Both the position numbers and the translations under genes were made by a program. From contig NZ_JAAJBT010000002.1 in assembly GCF_011392115.1 (NCBI RefSeq), positions 62,001-126,000 of the forward strand: DNA of 64,000 nt. Reading direction: 5' to 3'. Shown here piece after piece: positions 1-57,023 of this stretch. The stretch is from Flavobacterium difficile (GTDB taxonomy: Bacteria > Bacteroidota > Bacteroidia > Flavobacteriales > Flavobacteriaceae). The notes beneath the pieces were generated by a model, which saw only the letters and a list, made by a program, of their open reading frames with translations, did no database searches and was not told where the DNA came from. Numbering within the stretch: position 1 is the stretch's first letter; each line of letters opens with the position of its first letter.

Positions 1-52
1 GCTCTTTTTACTTTTCAAAAACTTGGCTCTTTTTACTTTTTACTTGGCTCTT
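1..52 (-). repeat. Short heptamer array, inverted relative to the array at 1235-1479
   Basis: Read on the - strand, 52-1 breaks into 7-bp words beginning AAG: AAGAGCC, AAGTAAA, AAGTAAA, AAGAGCC, AAGTTTT, then a 4-base irregularity and AAGTAAA plus a partial AAGAGCC cut by the window edge. The vocabulary is the same as in the array at 1235-1479 but on the opposite strand, so the first gene is flanked by inverted copies. It ends six bases before the ATG at 59. The left boundary is not visible. Confidence 0.85.
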
Positions 53-58
53 CATAAT

Positions 59-1276
59 ATGAAACTTATTTTCCTTGCTTTAGCTTATCCTAAAATTCCT
101 AGTTCGAGTAATTTATATACCGATTTGATGGAAGCATTTCGCGATCAAGGTCATGACGTTTTTGTGGTGGCACCAGCTGTAAGTGATAATGAAGTTGGCT
201 TGATTCAGGAAGAGGGTATTCAGGTTATTCGTGTAAAAACACTTCCGTTATTAAACGTAAATCCAATTCAAAAAGGAATTGCGAATGTGTTGTTGCCTTT
301 TCAATATAAAAAAGCGATTAAAAAATATTTCAAATCTGAAGCTTTAGATTTGATACTTATGCCAACGCCACCAATAAGTTTAGTTGATGTGGCGAGTTGG
401 TTAAAAAAGAACTATCAATCGAAATTGTATTTGATTTTAAGAGATATTTTTCCACAAAATGCTGTCGATTTAGGTATGATGAAGAAAGGTGGAATGTTAT
501 ACAATTTCTTTCGAAAAAAAGAACATTTATTATACGAAGTGGCTGATGAAATTGGCTGTATGTCGCAAGGAAATATCGAATATGTAATTCACCATAATGC
601 AAATGTTTCCACTGAAAAATTACATTTATTACCGAATTGGCAAAAAGAAATTCCACAATTTTCTGATGATGTAATTGCTTTAAGAACCAAATACAGTTTT
701 GATGATAATTTCGTGATTATTTTTGGTGGAAATATTGGTTTGCCTCAAAAGTTAGAAAATATATTAGCAGTTGCCGAATTGTTTCAACCTGAAGATAAAG
801 TCTTGTTTTTTATCGTAGGTCAAGGAACGGAGAAAGCGAAAATTGAAAAATTAATAAAAGAAAAAAACCTTAAAAACATTGTCATTAAGAATTCTTTACC
901 TCGTGAAGATTATCAAAATATTATTTCAGTAGCCAATTGTGGTTTGATTGCTTTACATGAAAATTTTACCATTCCGAATATTCCATCCAAATCGTTGAGT
1001 TATTTCAATGCTAAAATTCCCGTTTTAGCAGCCATTGATGAAAATACAGATTACGGAACCATTATTCAAGATGAAGTAAAAGCTGGAGTTTGGGCACCTT
1101 CCAACCAACCCAATCTAATCAAAGAAAAAATTGATTTATTGCGTTCAAATCCGCAACTTTGTAAACAAATGGGAGAAAATGGGTATCAGTATTTTATCAA
1201 TAATGTGACACCTAAACATAGTTATGAGATTATAAAGAGGCAAGTGGGAAGTGGAAAGAGCCAAGTAAAAAGTTAA
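59..1276 (+). CDS. Glycosyltransferase family 4 (WbuB-like)
   Basis: Predicted cytoplasmic GT-B glycosyltransferase that adds a sugar to a lipid-linked glycan. The N-terminal Rossmann half starts MKLIFLALAYPKIPSSS. The C-terminal donor half carries GGNIGLPQKLENIL and a PNIPSKSLSYF segment, typical of GT4 enzymes of O-antigen and capsule loci. About 405 residues, normal for the family. I chose ATG at 59 because the upstream in-frame ATG at 23 would translate the repeat array. The last 13 or so residues (RQVGSGKSQVKS) and the stop codon are encoded by heptamer repeats, so the natural C-terminus has probably been replaced or extended. It sits directly before the bacillosamine cassette, so it may act on a diNAcBac-primed glycan; that link and the sugar specificity are inference. 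Confidence 0.85.
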   Translation: MKLIFLALAYPKIPSSSNLYTDLMEAFRDQGHDVFVVAPAVSDNEVGLIQEEGIQVIRVKTLPLLNVNPIQKGIANVLLPFQYKKAIKKYFKSEALDLILMPTPPISLVDVASWLKKNYQSKLYLILRDIFPQNAVDLGMMKKGGMLYNFFRKKEHLLYEVADEIGCMSQGNIEYVIHHNANVSTEKLHLLPNWQKEIPQFSDDVIALRTKYSFDDNFVIIFGGNIGLPQKLENILAVAELFQPEDKVLFFIVGQGTEKAKIEKLIKEKNLKNIVIKNSLPREDYQNIISVANCGLIALHENFTIPNIPSKSLSYFNAKIPVLAAIDENTDYGTIIQDEVKAGVWAPSNQPNLIKEKIDLLRSNPQLCKQMGENGYQYFINNVTPKHSYEIIKRQVGSGKSQVKS

Positions 1277-1479
1277 AAGAGCCAAGTAAAAAGTTAAAAG
1301 AGCCAAGTAAAAAGTTAAAAGAGCCAAGTAAAAAGGATCAAGAGCCAAGTGGAAAGAGCCAAGTAGAAAGGATCAAGAGCCAGGTTAAAAGAGCCAAGTA
1401 AAAAGTAAAAAGAGCCAAGTAAAAAGGAGCAAGAGCCAAGTTAAAAGAGCCAAGTAAAAAGTAAAAAGAGTTAAGCAAT
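1235..1479 (+). repeat. 35-unit heptamer tandem array (AAGAGCC / AAGTAAA / AAGTTAA)
   Basis: The 245 bases divide into exactly 35 heptamers with no indel. Nearly all begin AAG; the commonest are AAGAGCC, AAGTAAA and AAGTTAA, often in that order as a 21-bp super-unit, with variants AAGTGGA, AAGGATC, AAGGAGC and AGGTTAA. The first 42 bases lie inside the end of the preceding CDS and supply its stop codon. The last heptamer (AAGCAAT) ends at the base before the ATG of the next gene, so the array fills the whole 203-base intergenic gap. An antisense open frame across it is a by-product of the repeats. Confidence 0.95.
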
Positions 1480-6681: not shown

Positions 6682-9051
6682 ATGCAGCCATATCGTGTAC
6701 ATCATGAAGATGATTTAGATCAGAATATCAACTTTAGAGAGCAATTCGAAAAGTACCTTATACATTGGAAATGGTTTGTAATCGGTGTGACCGTTTCTTT
6801 ACTAATTGCCTTTTTATATTTGCGATATACAGTTCCATTGTATAATGCCACCTCTACTATTTTAGTGAAAGATGATAGAAAAGGTGGTTTGGCTTCGGAG
6901 CTTTCTGCTTTTTCCGATTTAGGAATGCTAAAAGGAGCCAAGAGTAATGTTGACAACGAAATTGAGGTTATAAAATCTAGAAAGTTAATTAAAAAAACCC
7001 TTAACGAATTAGGTTTTAATATCAGTTATATCAACGAAGGACGAATAAAAGATGGCGAAATTTACAATAATTGCCCGATAAAAATTATATTTTATAACCA
7101 AAGTCCAAATTTTTATAATGAGTTTCATCAGTTTAAAGTAGTTTCCCAAACTTCTGATACTTTTGAGGTTTTTATTAATTCAAGACTTTTCGGAACTTTT
7201 AAATACGGACAATCGATTCGTTATTTAACCGGCGATTTTTCTGTTGTTAAAGATAAATTTAATTCCGAAAATTCGTTAAAAGAATTTTCAATTCGTGTGG
7301 AGGTACTTCCTATTGAAGGTTTGGCAGATAATTACAGAAGTCGTTTGAAAGTAATGACATTAAGTAAAAATACGAGTGTTATAGAATTAAATTTTGTTGA
7401 TCCGATTCATTTAAGAGCCAAAGACTTTTTAAATGCATTGGTAAAAAATTACAATCAAGACGCTATAGAAGATAAAAATTTTATAGGTGAAAACACATCT
7501 AAATTCATAGAGCAACGATTGCGTTTGATTTATAACGAATTGGAAGGGGTAGAAAAAGATGCTGAACAATTTAAAAAGTCTAATAAAGTAACCGATATCA
7601 CCTCGGAGGCTGGTTTGTTTTTAGAAAATGCCAGTGAATTTGAAAAACGAGAAATTGAAACGGAAACCCAATTAAAAGTTGTTACTACATTAATTGATTA
7701 TTTAAAAGCCAATAAATCGGAAGATTTAATTCCAGCTAATATATTAACCGCTGATGTTGATGCTTCCGATGTTATTAATCAATACAATACGTTAGTTTTG
7801 GAACGCAATCGTCTGTTAAAAACGGCAGGTGAAAAAAATGCTGTGGTTTTAGCACTAGATAAAAAAATTGCTTCTCTACGTTATACTGTAGGTGCTAGTT
7901 TGCAACAATTAAAATCGTCTTTACAAATTAAAAAGAACGATTTAGCCCGTCAAAATGCCATTGTTGAAGGTCGAATTTCTCAAATTCCTACACAAGAAAA
8001 AGAATTTAGGATTATCGCTCGTCAACAACAAGTGAAAGAAGCCTTGTATTTGTATTTGTTAGAGAAAAGGGAAGAAACAGCTATTTCACTGGCAGTAACT
8101 GAGCCAAATGCTAAAGTGATTGATGATGCTACTTCATCGGCTACTCCAGTTTCTCCTAATAGAAATGTCATTTATATTATTGCTTTAGCATTAGGACTTT
8201 TAGTTCCTTTTGGTGTATTCTATTTGATAAATTTCTTTGATAATAAAGTCAAATCAAGATTAGATATTGAAAGAAATACAACCATTCCATTTATTGGAGA
8301 TGTGCCAAAAGCTGAAAATCCAAATGAAATTATTCAGTTAAATAGTAGAACCAATACAGCAGAAGCTATTCGTATCATTAGAACTAACCTCGAATTTATT
8401 CTAAAAGATGTAAAAGAAGGCTTAGCCAAAACTATTTTTGTAACGTCTACTTTTCCTAAAGAAGGAAAAACATTTGTTTCTGTAAATTTGGCTTCTACAA
8501 TAGCTTTATCGGATAAAAAGGTTTTATTGATAGGATTGGATATAAGAAACCCAAAAATTGATACGTATTTACAAGTTCCAACTGTAGGTTTAACGAATTA
8601 TTTATCTTCAAATAAATACAGTTCCATAGATGAATTAATTGTTAAAATTGATAATTATTCCAACTTTTATGTGCTTCCTGCCGGAATTATTCCACCCAAT
8701 CCAGCTGAATTATTGATGGATAAGAAAGTAGCACTATTATTTGAAGAGTTGAAAACTAAATTCGATTACATAGTTGTAGATACTGCACCAGTAAGTTTAG
8801 TTACAGACACGCTGATTATAGGGTATTTAGCCGATGCATTTGTTTATGTTACCAGAGCCAATTATTTAGATAAACGCATGCTGAAATTGCCTCAACAATT
8901 GTATGATGAATCTAAGTTGCCAAATATGTCTATTTTAATAAATGATACCGATTCTCAAAAGGGTTATGGCTACGGCTATGGCTACGGCTATGGCTATGGC
9001 GTAGAAGTTGAAACTAAATCTTGGTGGAAAACTCTATTTACAAAGAAATAA
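6682..9051 (+). CDS. wzc: Polysaccharide co-polymerase / tyrosine autokinase, Wzc family
   Basis: Inner-membrane chain-length regulator fused to a BY-kinase. TM1 is near residues 31-50 (WFVIGVTVSLLIAFLYL), followed by a Wzz domain, a long coiled-coil periplasmic part with a GNVR region, and TM2 at about 493-515. The cytoplasmic kinase has Walker A in STFPKEGKTFVSVN, A-prime in LLIGLDIRNPK and Walker B in YIVVDTAPV. The C-terminal tyrosine cluster is a perfect (Gly-Tyr)6 run from near 8960 to 9000, encoded by a repetitive 12-bp GGCTACGGCTAT pattern. Autophosphorylation of this cluster controls polymer length in the family. The opposing phosphatase is encoded just downstream on the other strand. 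Confidence 0.93.
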   Translation: MQPYRVHHEDDLDQNINFREQFEKYLIHWKWFVIGVTVSLLIAFLYLRYTVPLYNATSTILVKDDRKGGLASELSAFSDLGMLKGAKSNVDNEIEVIKSRKLIKKTLNELGFNISYINEGRIKDGEIYNNCPIKIIFYNQSPNFYNEFHQFKVVSQTSDTFEVFINSRLFGTFKYGQSIRYLTGDFSVVKDKFNSENSLKEFSIRVEVLPIEGLADNYRSRLKVMTLSKNTSVIELNFVDPIHLRAKDFLNALVKNYNQDAIEDKNFIGENTSKFIEQRLRLIYNELEGVEKDAEQFKKSNKVTDITSEAGLFLENASEFEKREIETETQLKVVTTLIDYLKANKSEDLIPANILTADVDASDVINQYNTLVLERNRLLKTAGEKNAVVLALDKKIASLRYTVGASLQQLKSSLQIKKNDLARQNAIVEGRISQIPTQEKEFRIIARQQQVKEALYLYLLEKREETAISLAVTEPNAKVIDDATSSATPVSPNRNVIYIIALALGLLVPFGVFYLINFFDNKVKSRLDIERNTTIPFIGDVPKAENPNEIIQLNSRTNTAEAIRIIRTNLEFILKDVKEGLAKTIFVTSTFPKEGKTFVSVNLASTIALSDKKVLLIGLDIRNPKIDTYLQVPTVGLTNYLSSNKYSSIDELIVKIDNYSNFYVLPAGIIPPNPAELLMDKKVALLFEELKTKFDYIVVDTAPVSLVTDTLIIGYLADAFVYVTRANYLDKRMLKLPQQLYDESKLPNMSILINDTDSQKGYGYGYGYGYGYGVEVETKSWWKTLFTKK
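8961..9000 (+). repeat. Microsatellite-like (Gly-Tyr)6 coding repeat in wzc
   Basis: Alternating GGT/GGC and TAT/TAC codons give six Gly-Tyr dipeptides and a final Gly. The DNA alternates GGCTAT and GGCTAC, so a 12-bp unit recurs. Slippage here would change the number of phosphorylatable tyrosines without shifting the frame. Confidence 0.9.
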
Positions 9052-9854: not shown

Positions 9855-9882
9855 AATTACAAAGCACGAATTACGAATTACA
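9855..9882 (+). repeat. Four-unit heptamer array at the end of the 9878-10651 gene
   Basis: Four consecutive 7-bp words: AATTACA, AAGCACG, AATTACG, AATTACA. The stop codon of the - strand gene at 9878-10651 lies inside the last word. The ACGAA vocabulary resembles the large array at 10752-11255. Confidence 0.75.
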
Positions 9883-10651
9883 ATTTGGGTGACAGGTGAT
9901 TTTGAATTCCTATAATGGTAGTTGTATTCCATTTTCTATGTAACAGTTTGGTTTTGTTTCTTTTTTTAATTGAAAAACCAATGAATAGAAAGGCTATCAC
10001 TATTTCTTTTGATGATAATGACTTTACGGTGAAGTCGATTTTTGAGGTGGTATTTGTTTTTTCTAATATGATTTCATTGCTGTATTGATTTTCACAAAGA
10101 TCTTCTTTGCTATTCCAATTTGCAATTGCAAGTTGTAGGTGTACTTGATTGGCTTCTTCTTCAGGCCAATAGAAATCTTGTTCTGGATTGATTTCTTGTA
10201 AATTTAACTTGTTTTGCTCCCAAATAAAAAGGATGTTTTTTGGAAGTACTTTTTTTAAAGGTCTCATTTTGTTGGCTTCAAAACCTATGATGATTTCCTC
10301 TAGGTGTTCAGATTGTAACCCTTTTTCTATAGTTCTGCTTCCTATTTGGTTTTCGGTATCTTCACTTAAAATTTCAAATAATAATTTATTGACTCTTCCT
10401 GCAAAAGATACTTCTTTGGCTTGATCGAAAAATGTTTTAGCTAGAGTACGAAATACCGATGATTTTTTTACACAAGTTCGAAATTCAGAACTGTGCTGTT
10501 TGATTCTATCGAATATTGGATTCGTTGCAAATTGCTCTTTTGTAATTCCGGATTTCCCTTTTAGACGGACATAATTTTCACCAGATTGGACATAAAAATT
10601 CAACTCATCTAGTGTGCCTTTAATTTGAAAAGGCGCCTCTATTTTTGCCAT
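9878..10651 (-). CDS. Bacteroidota-specific protein of unknown function (KGTxxxLNFY family)
   Basis: I cannot assign a function. The N-terminus (QIKGTLDELNFYVQSGENY, then VRLKGKSGITKEQFATNP) resembles a group of short Flavobacteriales proteins that begin KGTIGxxxFY and continue with a basic R-x-KGG segment and a DPxFxRxRENxxEF motif; here the last is NPIFDRIKQHSSEF. This comparison is from memory and should be tested. 257 residues, no signal peptide or membrane helix, lysine-rich C-terminus. The stop codon lies in a heptamer array. A well-formed promoter and paired 14-bp direct repeats lie upstream. It interrupts the polysaccharide locus on the opposite strand. Confidence 0.65.
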   Translation of the reverse strand: MAKIEAPFQIKGTLDELNFYVQSGENYVRLKGKSGITKEQFATNPIFDRIKQHSSEFRTCVKKSSVFRTLAKTFFDQAKEVSFAGRVNKLLFEILSEDTENQIGSRTIEKGLQSEHLEEIIIGFEANKMRPLKKVLPKNILFIWEQNKLNLQEINPEQDFYWPEEEANQVHLQLAIANWNSKEDLCENQYSNEIILEKTNTTSKIDFTVKSLSSKEIVIAFLFIGFSIKKRNKTKLLHRKWNTTTIIGIQNHLSPKL

Positions 10652-10676: not shown

Positions 10677-10707
10677 CAAAACTACAGTTCTTTTTTAGCC
10701 TTGTCAA
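10677..10707 (-). promoter_or_regulatory. Complete flavobacterial promoter of the unknown gene at 9878-10651
   Basis: On the - strand TTG (complement of CAA at 10705-10707), a 20-base spacer and TAGTTTTG (complement of 10677-10684) match the -33/-7 pattern. The -7 element lies 25 bases upstream of the start codon at 10651. Confidence 0.7.
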
Positions 10708-10751: not shown

Positions 10752-11270
10752 TTGGAAGTACGAGGTGAGAAGTACGAAGTGAGAAGTACGAGGTTAGAAG
10801 TACGAGGTTGGAAGTACGAGGTTGGAAGTACGAGGTTGGAAGTACGAGGTACGAGGTGAGAAGTACGAAATACGAAGTTGGAAGTACGAGGTGAGAAGTA
10901 CGAGGTGAGAAGTACGAAGTACGAGGTGAGAAGTACGAAATTAGAAGTTAGAAGTACGAGGTGAGAAGTACGAGGTGAGAAGTACGAAGTGAGAAGTACG
11001 AAGTGAGAAGTACGAGGTACGAGGTGAGAAGTACGAGGTACGAGGTTGGAATTACGAAGTGAGAAGTACGAAGTACGAGGTTGGAAGTACGAGGTACGAG
11101 GTGAGAAGTACGAAATACGAAGTTGGAAGTACGAGGTGAGAAGTACGAGGTACGAGGTTGGAAGTACGAGGTGAGAAGTACGAAGTGAGAAGTACGAAGT
11201 ACGAGGTTAGAAGTACGAAGTGAGAAGTGAAAAGTACGAAGTGAGAAGTACGAGGTTTGGAAGTGTGAAG
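10752..11270 (+). repeat. 74-unit heptamer tandem array (TACGARR / TKRGAAG)
   Basis: From 10752 to 11255 the sequence is 72 consecutive heptamers (504 bp) with no indel. Forty are TACGAGG, TACGAAG or TACGAAA; thirty-two are TGAGAAG, TTGGAAG, TTAGAAG or single-base variants. The two classes mostly alternate. After one extra T at 11256, two more units follow (TTGGAAG, TGTGAAG). An exact 82-bp internal duplication (10825-10906 and 11070-11151, offset 245 bp or 35 units) shows growth by segmental duplication. It occupies most of the 757-base gap between divergent genes. The antisense open frame over it is low-complexity and is not called. Confidence 0.97.
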
Positions 11271-11352
11271 TTTGATTTGTCATTTTATCTTGTTGTGACA
11301 TGTTATCTTATTTTAAATAAACTATAAAAAAAATAATGTTGCTGGGTTTCAT

Positions 11353-11383
11353 TTTGTTGGTGTATATAAAAAGATTATTTTTG
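11353..11383 (+). promoter_or_regulatory. Complete flavobacterial promoter before wzm
   Basis: TTTG at 11353-11356, a 19-base spacer and TATTTTTG at 11376-11383 fit the -33/-7 consensus. The wzm start codon is 25 bases downstream. This probably drives the long glycosyltransferase operon. Confidence 0.7.
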
Positions 11384-11408: not shown

Positions 11409-12278
11409 ATGAATACAGATAAAATTCCGGAAGACGATTGGTTGTATGAAATCAAACCTAAAGACAACTTTTTTTCGTTGCATTTACAAGAAATTTGGAA
11501 TTATAGAGATTTGCTTTTTCTTTTCGTAAGAAGAGATGTGGTTACGGTTTATAAACAAACTATTTTAGGACCACTTTGGTATTTAATTCAACCTTTGTTT
11601 ACAGCGGTTACCTTTACTATTATTTTTAATAGTGTAGCAGGAATTGAAACCGGAGTAACACCTCCTTTTTTATATAATTTAGCAGGAATTATTGTTTGGA
11701 ATTATTTTACTACCTGTTTGAACGAAACTTCTGATACCTTTAAAAAAAATGCGGGTATTTTTGGGAAAGTTTATTTTCCTCGATTAATTATGCCGCTTTC
11801 TATAGTGGTATCTAATTTATTAAAATTGTCTATACAGTTACTTATTTTTATAGGTTTTTATGTGTATTACAGTTTGGCTGGTGTAGCTTTATCATGTAGT
11901 CCGTTTGTGTTTTTATTTCCAGTTTTGGTAATAATAATGGGGGTTTTAGGTTTAGGTTTAGGGATGATTATTTCCTCTTTAGTGACCAAATATCGCGATT
12001 TGTCTTTTCTTATCGGATTTGGTGTGCAATTGCTAATGTATGTATCTGCCGTAATGTATCCAATTGCATTACTTCAAGAAAAATTACCTGATTATGCTTG
12101 GTTAGTTCGTTACAATCCGTTGGCTTATATTATTGAAACCTCGCGTTATTTGTTATTGGCAGAAGGTGAAGTTTCTATGTTTGGAGTTCTTTATACCCTT
12201 GGAATCACTATTTTGTTGTTTTTTATAGGATTATTGATTTTTAATAAAACCGAGAAAAATTTTATTGATACGGTTTAA
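11409..12278 (+). CDS. wzm: ABC-2 polysaccharide exporter permease (Wzm family)
   Basis: Inner-membrane permease that, with Wzt, moves a completed undecaprenyl-linked polysaccharide to the periplasm. 289 residues with six hydrophobic segments. A cytoplasmic N-terminus is followed by the family hallmark RRDVVTVYKQTILGPLWYL (about residues 38-56); later helices include the stretch GVLGLGLGMIISSLVTKYRD. The next gene is the matching ATPase with a carbohydrate-recognition tail. Membership in the O-antigen/teichoic-acid ABC-2 family is clear; the exported glycan is not known. Confidence 0.92.
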   Translation: MNTDKIPEDDWLYEIKPKDNFFSLHLQEIWNYRDLLFLFVRRDVVTVYKQTILGPLWYLIQPLFTAVTFTIIFNSVAGIETGVTPPFLYNLAGIIVWNYFTTCLNETSDTFKKNAGIFGKVYFPRLIMPLSIVVSNLLKLSIQLLIFIGFYVYYSLAGVALSCSPFVFLFPVLVIIMGVLGLGLGMIISSLVTKYRDLSFLIGFGVQLLMYVSAVMYPIALLQEKLPDYAWLVRYNPLAYIIETSRYLLLAEGEVSMFGVLYTLGITILLFFIGLLIFNKTEKNFIDTV

Positions 12279-12334: not shown

Positions 12335-13621
12335 ATGCATCCAAATAGAGTCATATTAAAAGCAGAAAATATTTCTAAACAATATCGTTTAGGTACGGTT
12401 GGGACTGGAACTTTAAGTCACGATTTAAATCGATTTTGGCATACCATACGTGGTAAAGAAGATCCGTATTTAAAGGTAGGTGAAGTGAACGACAGAAGCT
12501 CAAAAGGTACTAGCCAATATGTTTGGGCTTTACAAGATATTAATTTCGAAATTAATGCGGGTGAAGTTGTAGGTATTATTGGAAAAAATGGTGCCGGAAA
12601 ATCTACTTTATTAAAAATATTATCAAAAGTTACCGCACCCACAACTGGAGTAATTAAAACAAAAGGAAGAATTGCCTCTTTATTAGAAGTAGGAACAGGT
12701 TTTAATCCAGAATTAACTGGTAGAGAAAACATCTATTTAAACGGTGCTATTTTAGGAATGACCAAAAAAGAAATCACGTCTAAATTAGATGAGATCATTG
12801 CTTTTTCAGGTTGTGAACGCTACATCGATACCCCTACAAAAAGATACAGTAGTGGTATGACCGTTCGTTTGGCCTTCGCTGTTGCCGCTTTTTTAGAACC
12901 TGAAATTTTAGTTGTAGATGAAGTTTTAGCTGTTGGTGATGCCGAGTTTCAGAAAAAAGCGATAGGTAAAATGCAAGACATTTCTAAATCGGAAGGTAGA
13001 ACCGTTTTATTTGTGAGTCACAATATGGCAGCAGTAAAGAGTTTGTGTACTCGCGGAATCGTTTTAGAAAACGGAAGATTAAAGTTTGATGGTACTGTAA
13101 ATGAAGCACTTGATGTATATTCTGATATTAATAAATCAACTGAGTTTAAAGTAGTTTTTGACGACGAAACAAGCAGAAGTGGAAGTAAAAATATACAGTT
13201 TCAATCTATTGAAATTTTCAATCAACATCAAAAAAACACTCAAGAATTTTCCATTGGAGATGATTTGATTATCAAACTTCAAATTAAAAATAATTCAACT
13301 GAAAAAAGAAGTGAAATGGGCATTCAAATTTTCACTACAGAAGAAATGCCTGTTTTTCATATGATGCCTCGAGATTCTAATTTTGAAATTCATCATGAAA
13401 ATGAAATAGAAGAATTTCAAATTCAGTTAAAAGACATTAGACTTTTTCCTGGGTTGTATTATATAACGCTCACTTCTGCTAGCACTACTGGACATCAGGT
13501 GTTTGATTGTATTCAAAACGCCTTAACTTTTGAAATTATAGATGGAGGAGCATATACTTCAAGAAATTTACCACGTGCTGCGGGTCTGTTTTTTATGAAT
13601 CCGGAATGGAAAAAAATCTAA
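12335..13621 (+). CDS. wzt: ABC exporter ATPase with C-terminal glycan-binding domain (Wzt family)
   Basis: ATPase partner of the adjacent permease. The nucleotide-binding domain has Walker A GIIGKNGAGKSTLLKIL, signature YSSGMTVRLAF, Walker B EILVVDEVLAVGD and an H-loop in LFVSHNMAAV. After about residue 265 comes a beta-rich Wzt_C-type domain (FSIGDDLIIKLQIKNNS onward) that in E. coli O8/O9a reads the terminal modification of the polymer before export. At 428 residues it is the long, substrate-specific form. This implies that the exported glycan carries a recognisable non-reducing end cap, possibly placed by one of the nearby methyltransferases. Confidence 0.92.
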   Translation: MHPNRVILKAENISKQYRLGTVGTGTLSHDLNRFWHTIRGKEDPYLKVGEVNDRSSKGTSQYVWALQDINFEINAGEVVGIIGKNGAGKSTLLKILSKVTAPTTGVIKTKGRIASLLEVGTGFNPELTGRENIYLNGAILGMTKKEITSKLDEIIAFSGCERYIDTPTKRYSSGMTVRLAFAVAAFLEPEILVVDEVLAVGDAEFQKKAIGKMQDISKSEGRTVLFVSHNMAAVKSLCTRGIVLENGRLKFDGTVNEALDVYSDINKSTEFKVVFDDETSRSGSKNIQFQSIEIFNQHQKNTQEFSIGDDLIIKLQIKNNSTEKRSEMGIQIFTTEEMPVFHMMPRDSNFEIHHENEIEEFQIQLKDIRLFPGLYYITLTSASTTGHQVFDCIQNALTFEIIDGGAYTSRNLPRAAGLFFMNPEWKKI

Positions 13622-56817: not shown

Positions 56818-56864
56818 GACTATATGACTATGTTTTGTTTAAAATGTTACAGGTTTTTTTTAAA

Positions 56865-56974
56865 AAGAGCCAAGGAAAAAGTAAAAAGGAAAAAGTTTTG
56901 GTTGTCAATTTAATTTAGAATTGTTTTTTGTTCACACTTTTTACTTGTTTCTTTCAACTTTTTCCTTGGCTCTT
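56865..56974. repeat. Inverted pair of heptamer arrays between the ABC permease and hisS
   Basis: On the + strand from 56865: AAGAGCC, AAGGAAA, AAGTAAA, AAGGAAA, AAGTTTT. On the - strand from 56974 leftwards: AAGAGCC, AAGGAAA, AAGTTGA, AAGAAAC, AAGTAAA, AAGTGTG. The outer parts form a perfect 21-bp inverted repeat (56862-56882 with 56957-56977) separated by 74 bases. The vocabulary is that of the array at 1235-1479, more than 55 kb away. Confidence 0.9.
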
Positions 56975-57023
56975 TTTCCAATTGTCATATAAAAGTAAGA
57001 TATTTGCACCTCAATAATTGATA

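Follow-up and report, generated by a model that had tools for sequence, protein, structure and literature searches.

Heptanucleotide STRR repeats are known from filamentous cyanobacteria. One of the closest systems described is the TAACTGA direct repeat, which, according to MacGregor (2015; PMC4679880), occurs in Beggiatoaceae, Cyanobacteria and five Bacteroidetes as one fixed word, located mostly just 5' of start codons in the main genome studied, with one Bacteroidetes set located directly behind a stop codon and with further heptamer repeats present beside TAACTGA in Gramella forsetii, A. sublithincola and Elizabethkingia anophelis. The same paper cites Mrazek (2007) as having found that heptanucleotides outnumber every other class in most genomes and as suggesting a 7-nt polymerase contact. 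The G-quadruplex heptamers GGGAATC and GGGGATT of Xanthomonas and Nostoc vary in length and sequence at the same intergenic sites, and inverted repeats are mentioned as well (PMC4692102, in part). Finally, the 23S rRNA intervening sequences (IVS, e.g., in Coxiella; PMC4990558, in part) contain an S23 open reading frame between complementary ends, and the S23/IVP proteins are described as resembling the Avd protein of diversity-generating retroelements (PMC10053308, in part).

The array considered here belongs to a 64,000-nucleotide stretch of the Flavobacterium difficile genome, hereafter the window (Table 1). It is 504 bp long, purine-rich on the plus strand and divides into 72 consecutive heptamers with zero indels, as was confirmed by a recount of the words given in a preliminary description. 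Of the two word classes distinguished there, the 40 TACGARR words were counted correctly, while the 32 TKRGAAG words comprise 30 exact ones plus one TTGGAAT and one TGAAAAG. Only eight distinct words are present. The T..GA frame is held in 71 of the 72 words (9 in the best of 2000 base-shuffled copies), and the classes do mostly alternate: they switch at 59 of the 71 steps, which none of 10000 class-order shuffles reached, although with 10 AA and 2 BB neighbours the alternation is strong rather than strict. Tandem Repeats Finder, the check proposed earlier, detected the array at periods 14, 56, 35 and 21 with 0, 0, 8 and 5% indels, respectively, the period of 7 being missing probably because adjacent words differ.

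Table 1. Features of the window and their positions.
Feature	Position	Strand	Basis or remark
72-heptamer array, TACGARR / TKRGAAG classes	10752..11255	+	sequence, Tandem Repeats Finder, word count, shuffles
11-word block, copy 1 of internal exact duplication, from word 12	10829..10905	+	lag 35 words
11-word block, copy 2	11074..11150	+	repeat of 10829..10905
257-aa protein gene, no Pfam match, left neighbour, divergent	9878..10651	-	ORF list, Pfam search
Promoter-like motif TTG-N20-TAGTTTTG, toward 257-aa gene, away from array	10677..10707	-	motif search
Promoter-like motif TTG-N19-TATTTTTG, toward permease gene, away from array	11354..11383	+	motif search
ABC-2 permease gene (Wzm-like, PF01061), right neighbour	11409..12278	+	ORF list, Pfam search
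ABC ATPase gene with Wzt_C domain (Wzt-like), next after permease	12335..13621	+	ORF list, Pfam search
Second heptamer array, AAGNNNN words (AAGAGCC/AAGTAAA)	1235..1475	+	upstream ORF ends inside; next ATG directly after
CTT-type array, right (inverted) arm of S23 cassette	22..52	-	PF05635 gene just left of window, G000:C2:61604-61918
Left stem of S23-less inverted heptamer pair	56862..56882	+	21-bp perfect stem
Right stem of S23-less inverted heptamer pair	56957..56977	+	partner of 56862..56882

The resemblance to STRR pointed out previously holds, since STRR or long SSRs (Mrazek, 2007, via PMC4679880; PMC4692102; both in part) and the present arrays are 7-nt tandem units, kept in one register, mostly intergenic and dispersed over the genome. 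However, the words appear to be different from those of STRR and are degenerate and of two classes, the closest relatives of the neighbouring gene are from Flavobacterium and not from cyanobacteria, and the stop-codon anchoring and S23-linked inverted pairs shown below do not appear in those parts of the STRR and long-SSR descriptions. TAACTGA repeats are likewise intergenic heptamer direct repeats (PMC4679880, in part), but the words of the present arrays vary by site and those examined in this genome mostly start at stops; TAACTGA itself is absent from both strands of the 72-word array. The array is also similar to those of Xanthomonas and Nostoc (PMC4692102, in part), except that it contains no GGG, the G-quadruplex heptamers having runs of at least three G. 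No spacers of a CRISPR array were left within it by the word count, and no Rfam family matched at gathering thresholds in the whole window. Its predicted RNA fold (z -4.5) arises from short pairs and was not counted as a sign of function. A named flavobacterial counterpart was, in agreement with the preliminary description, not found in the literature searched, among the matches listed. The array represents one more heptanucleotide repeat, and the stop-anchored and S23-arm patterns are of greater use.

The array separates two divergent genes, each preceded by a promoter-like motif directed away from it. The Bacteroidota promoter consensus is TTG-N17-23-TANNTTTG; the motifs were scored by this general consensus rather than by one derived from the present data. 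When the flank bases were shuffled, the left motif arose in 0.05% and the right one in 5.6% of cases, and none of the 2000 shuffles had both. Since both motifs point outward, neither transcript is likely to include the array, which, judging from the motifs, would be an untranscribed spacer between divergent genes and promoters. The same position, together with the two-class alternation and the length of 504 bp, would also suit a regulatory array at the two divergent promoters of this polysaccharide export locus, bound by approximately one protein per 7- or 14-bp word. In line with that, a homologous 257-aa gene is located upstream in four relatives, three of which (L039, L040 and L053; not L091) have a period-7 array in the gap to the permease. 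Nevertheless, the gap words 5' of the permease vary between species, being most alike in L053 and L249, and 88 of 100 loci are free of a period-7 array there, which makes such a binding array rather improbable. The remaining 12 loci have words mostly different from those of the 72-word array; up to ten of the loci counted are duplicates (ten of 110 considered), the pair L106/L261 among the twelve being one instance.

We favor, with a probability of roughly two in three, the interpretation that the 504-bp array is a solo STRR-like heptanucleotide array, grown by slippage between divergent promoters and probably without a function of its own. It may have developed from a few founder words through replication slippage and block duplication. 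This is supported by the eight word types free of indels, the related arrays in the genome, the outward motifs and an exact internal duplication of an 11-word (77-bp) block, whose two copies are 245 bp, or 35 words, apart. Since a duplication of this length was reached in 2.6% of order-1 word simulations, in which the word-to-word frequencies were kept, the support for block duplication is no more than modest (P 0.026). The previous claim that some agent is needed to maintain or regenerate the period of 7 bp was too strong: eight words in 72 positions need few independent substitutions, and slippage or unequal exchange copies whole words, so that an indel-free register is to be expected of a fairly young tandem array, by reasoning rather than by measurement. 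That the register owes nothing to coding constraint was right. Because three heptamers equal seven codons, a repetitive reading frame can occur within such an array, and a mechanically called 117-aa ORF at 10948-11301 of the minus strand does show TSYF/LRTS-like repeats; still, a repetitive peptide as the product of the array is hardly credible, considering that the ORF covers just a part of it and that the arrays of relatives have unrelated words. The copy number is given as in the assembly, and short reads have difficulty with repeats of this size, but it is very improbable that the copy number or the word order was made by the assembly, given the heterogeneous words, the location inside a 665-kb contig and the similar arrays in many independent assemblies, including single-contig ones (e.g., G036).

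The array is a member of a short-word array family spread over this genome and its relatives. A BLAST search with the 72-word array against the 2.95-Mb genome gave 11 matches, self included, one of them 496 bp long at 78% identity, and a search with the second, AAG-word array of the window gave 51 matches at approximately 40 sites when merged by eye. Five AAG anchors 7 nt apart were present in 131 of 150 Flavobacterium genomes with the own genome counted, and either this or the reversed (GAA-anchor) pattern matched in 138 of the 149 other genomes; the reversed pattern, used as a control, is itself a heptamer pattern and is thus no measure of chance. The own genome was the richest in anchored heptamer patterns (661 matches). 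In 80 orthologous permease loci (667 kb), where the Tandem Repeats Finder check was extended to relatives, 87 of 238 non-overlapping arrays had a period divisible by 7. The periods peaked at 7, 14 and 21 over the neighbouring ones, with 26 arrays at period 7 as compared with 4 and 6 at periods 6 and 8, respectively, and period 12 (28 arrays) was the other frequent class. Eleven of 81 arrays in these loci were inside a called ORF.

The usual place of the family in this genome is directly behind a stop codon. The 29 array loci examined for this were the 30 top-ranking BLAST matches among the 51, reduced to 27 by merging of overlaps, plus L002 and L003, with the 72-word array left out. For 26 of the 29 arrays, the upstream gene was encoded on the purine-rich strand (binomial P 1.5e-5). 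Of the 29 arrays, 23 started within 20 nt and 25 within 45 nt of the stop codon of an open frame on the same strand; the numbers are 20 and 22, respectively, without L003, L281 and L291, which rest on doubtful frames other than the chosen upstream gene. In one further array, L279, the start was placed at the stop codon by eye. All three stops (TAA, TAG and TGA) were used, and in nine stop-anchored cases the stop codon was inside the called array, implying that the array may have supplied the stop. The distance to the next gene was variable. Clear exceptions were L296, L299 and L304, of which L299 had a short array at the stop and the main array 281 nt further. The 72-word array is not at a stop codon and fits neither this pattern nor that of the S23 arms. 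Pairing was rejected as the cause of the solo stop-anchored arrays: 15 of 18 testable ones had no inverted partner before the next gene, and in 3 of 21 solo arrays tested such a partner beat all shuffles (L278 and L283, having no gap, and L297, an S23 cassette with its right arm beyond the tested gap, were not scorable). One idea for their position is that untranslated purine-rich nascent RNA starts at stops and could favor R-loops and slippage.

Two more general placement rules were rejected. The strand rule, i.e., G-rich after a stop and C-rich before a start, applied to 21 of 22 and 12 of 16 arrays, respectively, of the permease loci but failed in the S23 loci L129-218, where right arms closely follow the S23 stop (stop-anchored G-rich in 2 of 12, start-anchored C-rich in 24 of 29), and the other sets were too small for it. 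A distance rule for the permease loci was not supported either, with 31 of 54 arrays in co-directional gaps being nearer to the stop (Wilcoxon P 0.29); 23 were within 15 nt of a stop and 21 within 15 nt of a start.

Many arrays in the relatives flank a gene of the PF05635 family (S23, a four-helix bundle), and the most elaborate form of the family, found across the phylum, consists of two mutually inverted arrays around such a gene. At a local alignment score of at least 32, the two flanks matched in inverted orientation in 31 of 56 S23 genes against 10 of 431 other genes from the same loci and 16 of 280 controls combining left and right flanks of different loci. Inverted-only flanks were rejected, since direct matches were enriched too (15 of 56 against 13 of 431). 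Stretches of period 7 were present in at least one flank of 24 of the 56 S23 genes and of 41 of the 431 controls, and of period 8 in 17 and 15, respectively, while periods 4-6 and 9-13 reached at most 2 of 56. The difference persisted among genes with intergenic gaps of 40-400 bp: inverted matches (score at least 28) in 22 of 37 against 3 of 87 (Fisher 1e-11), period 7 in 16 of 37 against 13 of 87 (P 0.001), and period 8 in 11 of 37 against 1 of 87. Within the orthologous gap between permease and ATPase, where 30 of 80 loci were not scorable, a period-7 array was present in 8 of 10 loci with S23 and in 5 of 40 without it (P 9e-5), one of these five being L074, in which a frameshifted S23 gene is still located between the arms. 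The gap measured 461-818 bp with S23 (11 loci, the frameshifted one included) in comparison with a median of 64 bp without it (39 loci). Over 114 S23 elements, the inverted flanks matched in 55 (score at least 32) against 5 of 570 mispairings with another site, and direct matches were found in 25.

The own genome has ten PF05635 matches, none of which is beside the 72-word array; two of them (G000:C7:109331-109606 and G000:C2:185402-185715) have internal stops or broken frames. The array is not an arm of a cassette in which inverted short-word arms enclose a PF05635 gene, but it could be the orphaned arm of one, overgrown after loss of the S23 gene and of the arm on the other side. At a distance of 10-15 kb there are two S23 cassettes with heptamer arms (C2:58447 and C2:61604), their arms share, by inspection, an AAG(T) core with the words of the array, and the frameshifted gene of L074 represents the permease-ATPase site of a relative. 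On the other hand, no S23 remnant or inverted partner was seen beside the array, its GARGTNN words differ from the S23 arm words seen in this genome, and it is not at a stop codon, so we consider an orphaned arm unlikely. The words common to the two cassettes near the window and to the approximately 40 AAG-array sites are an exception, as are a few pairs such as L124/L125: a genome-wide word dialect as a rule was rejected, the median arm likeness being 21 within (n 49) and 20 between genomes (n 3712). The number of S23 genes per genome correlated modestly with the heptamer matches (rho 0.33, or 0.24 after genome size; n 149).

Similar to the 23S rRNA IVS (PMC4990558, in part), the cassettes contain an ORF of the S23 family (the L053 protein matches 2GSC at 1.7e-28) between complementary ends. 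They differ in having arms of tandem 7-8-nt words specific for each site and in being located between protein genes instead of in a 23S rRNA helix, with 109 of the 114 sampled standing between two same-strand open frames. In 72 of these 109 cassettes, selected by an arm score of at least 28, the left arm started a median of 3.5 nt past the upstream stop (within 15 nt in 63 of 72) and ended 54 nt short of the S23 gene, while the right arm started a median of 4 nt past the S23 stop and reached to 5 nt from the first in-frame ATG of the following open frame (within 15 nt in 56 of 72). The S23 loci were taken from the best-scoring profile matches, the permease loci and the own genome, and canonical members are therefore over-represented.

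At orthologous sites, an arm matched its own partner better than partners from other species in three groups (37, 20 and 17 elements; permutation P 0.0002, 0.0002 and 0.009, respectively), with no own-partner excess in group 3 (n 7; 21 against 23). The median energy of the arm RNA duplex was -49.6 kcal/mol with own against -34.6 with other partners. The words thus turn over while the match of the arms is kept. Arms as transposon ends are disfavoured, because each set of arms is specific to its site and, for 91 of 98 S23 proteins, the closest one in sequence was from the same site, which indicates mostly vertical descent.

This anatomy suggests, tentatively, that the PF05635 cassettes may be an mRNA counterpart of the 23S rRNA IVS. 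The arms, anchored at the upstream stop and the downstream start, would pair in the operon mRNA, resembling the stem closed by the complementary ends of an IVS, exclude the S23 gene as a loop and place stop and start side by side again, and tandem words would allow the arms to slip by whole words with the match retained. The solo stop-anchored arrays and, rarely, arrays like the 72-word one might then be by-products or remnants of this process. Alternatively to the stop-start bridging, the stem could be cleaved by RNase III. S23 genes with short-word arms and stop-anchored heptamers as a rule were not described, nor was an S23/IVP function outside rRNA found, in the literature searched, among the matches listed. 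With the arms as a defined candidate RNA partner, the S23 function becomes testable.

The unit length over the 114 elements was 7 in 34, 8 in 35, 9 in 6 and 10 in a single element, and depended on the site. The largest site (group 0, 37 elements at the same gene junction, e.g., L129 and L153) had period 8 in 24 and period 7 in none, the permease-ATPase site (17 elements) had period 7 in 15 and period 8 in none, and a 20-member site was mixed (period 8 in 4, period 9 in 5). A universal 7-nt unit, such as a polymerase footprint, is thus not supported for the S23 arms, as the sites keep differing unit lengths; a length of 8 at one site and 7 at another bears on what determines the length of repeat units. 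Of 247 Bacteroidota genomes sampled, 193 had PF05635, with 183 exceeding the curated cut-off and 15 of the 193 belonging to the genus Flavobacterium. Among another 28 S23 loci, of which 26 lie outside the genus, the inverted flanks matched in 9 (7 outside) against 7 of 756 mispairings, with period 7 in 7, period 8 in 3 and other periods of 4-13 in none. In the locus L157 (G147:C1:75.7-76.6 kb), two equally scoring S23 genes stand in tandem and are flanked by perfect ACATCGA arrays in direct orientation, unlike the usual inverted arms.

Several other structures were observed in passing. The S23-less inverted heptamer pair of the window (56862-56977) has no gene between its stems and a predicted fold of -42.1 kcal/mol (z -5.4). 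A composite intergenic unit is present in approximately four copies, about 170-450 bp apart, at L004:1000-2100 (G000:C2:448.5-449.5 kb), each copy combining a small heptamer array of the same GARGTNN type as the 72-word array with a REP-like stretch that is common to the copies and includes CCCGATGCTTCGGGA. In the gaps of L280, L285 and L301 of this genome, a CTTTGCGGTTAAA-like motif is repeated shortly 5' of the next gene, and a 17-bp repeat similar to it is found at L092:5364-5414. The only reverse transcriptase match (PF00078) in the genome is a 603-aa open frame in L277 (G000:C3:16153-16872). Near the C-terminus of the Wzc-like tyrosine kinase (window 8965-9000), six consecutive YG codon pairs are present, and similar 6- or 12-bp repeats occurred in approximately 10 of the 80 permease loci.
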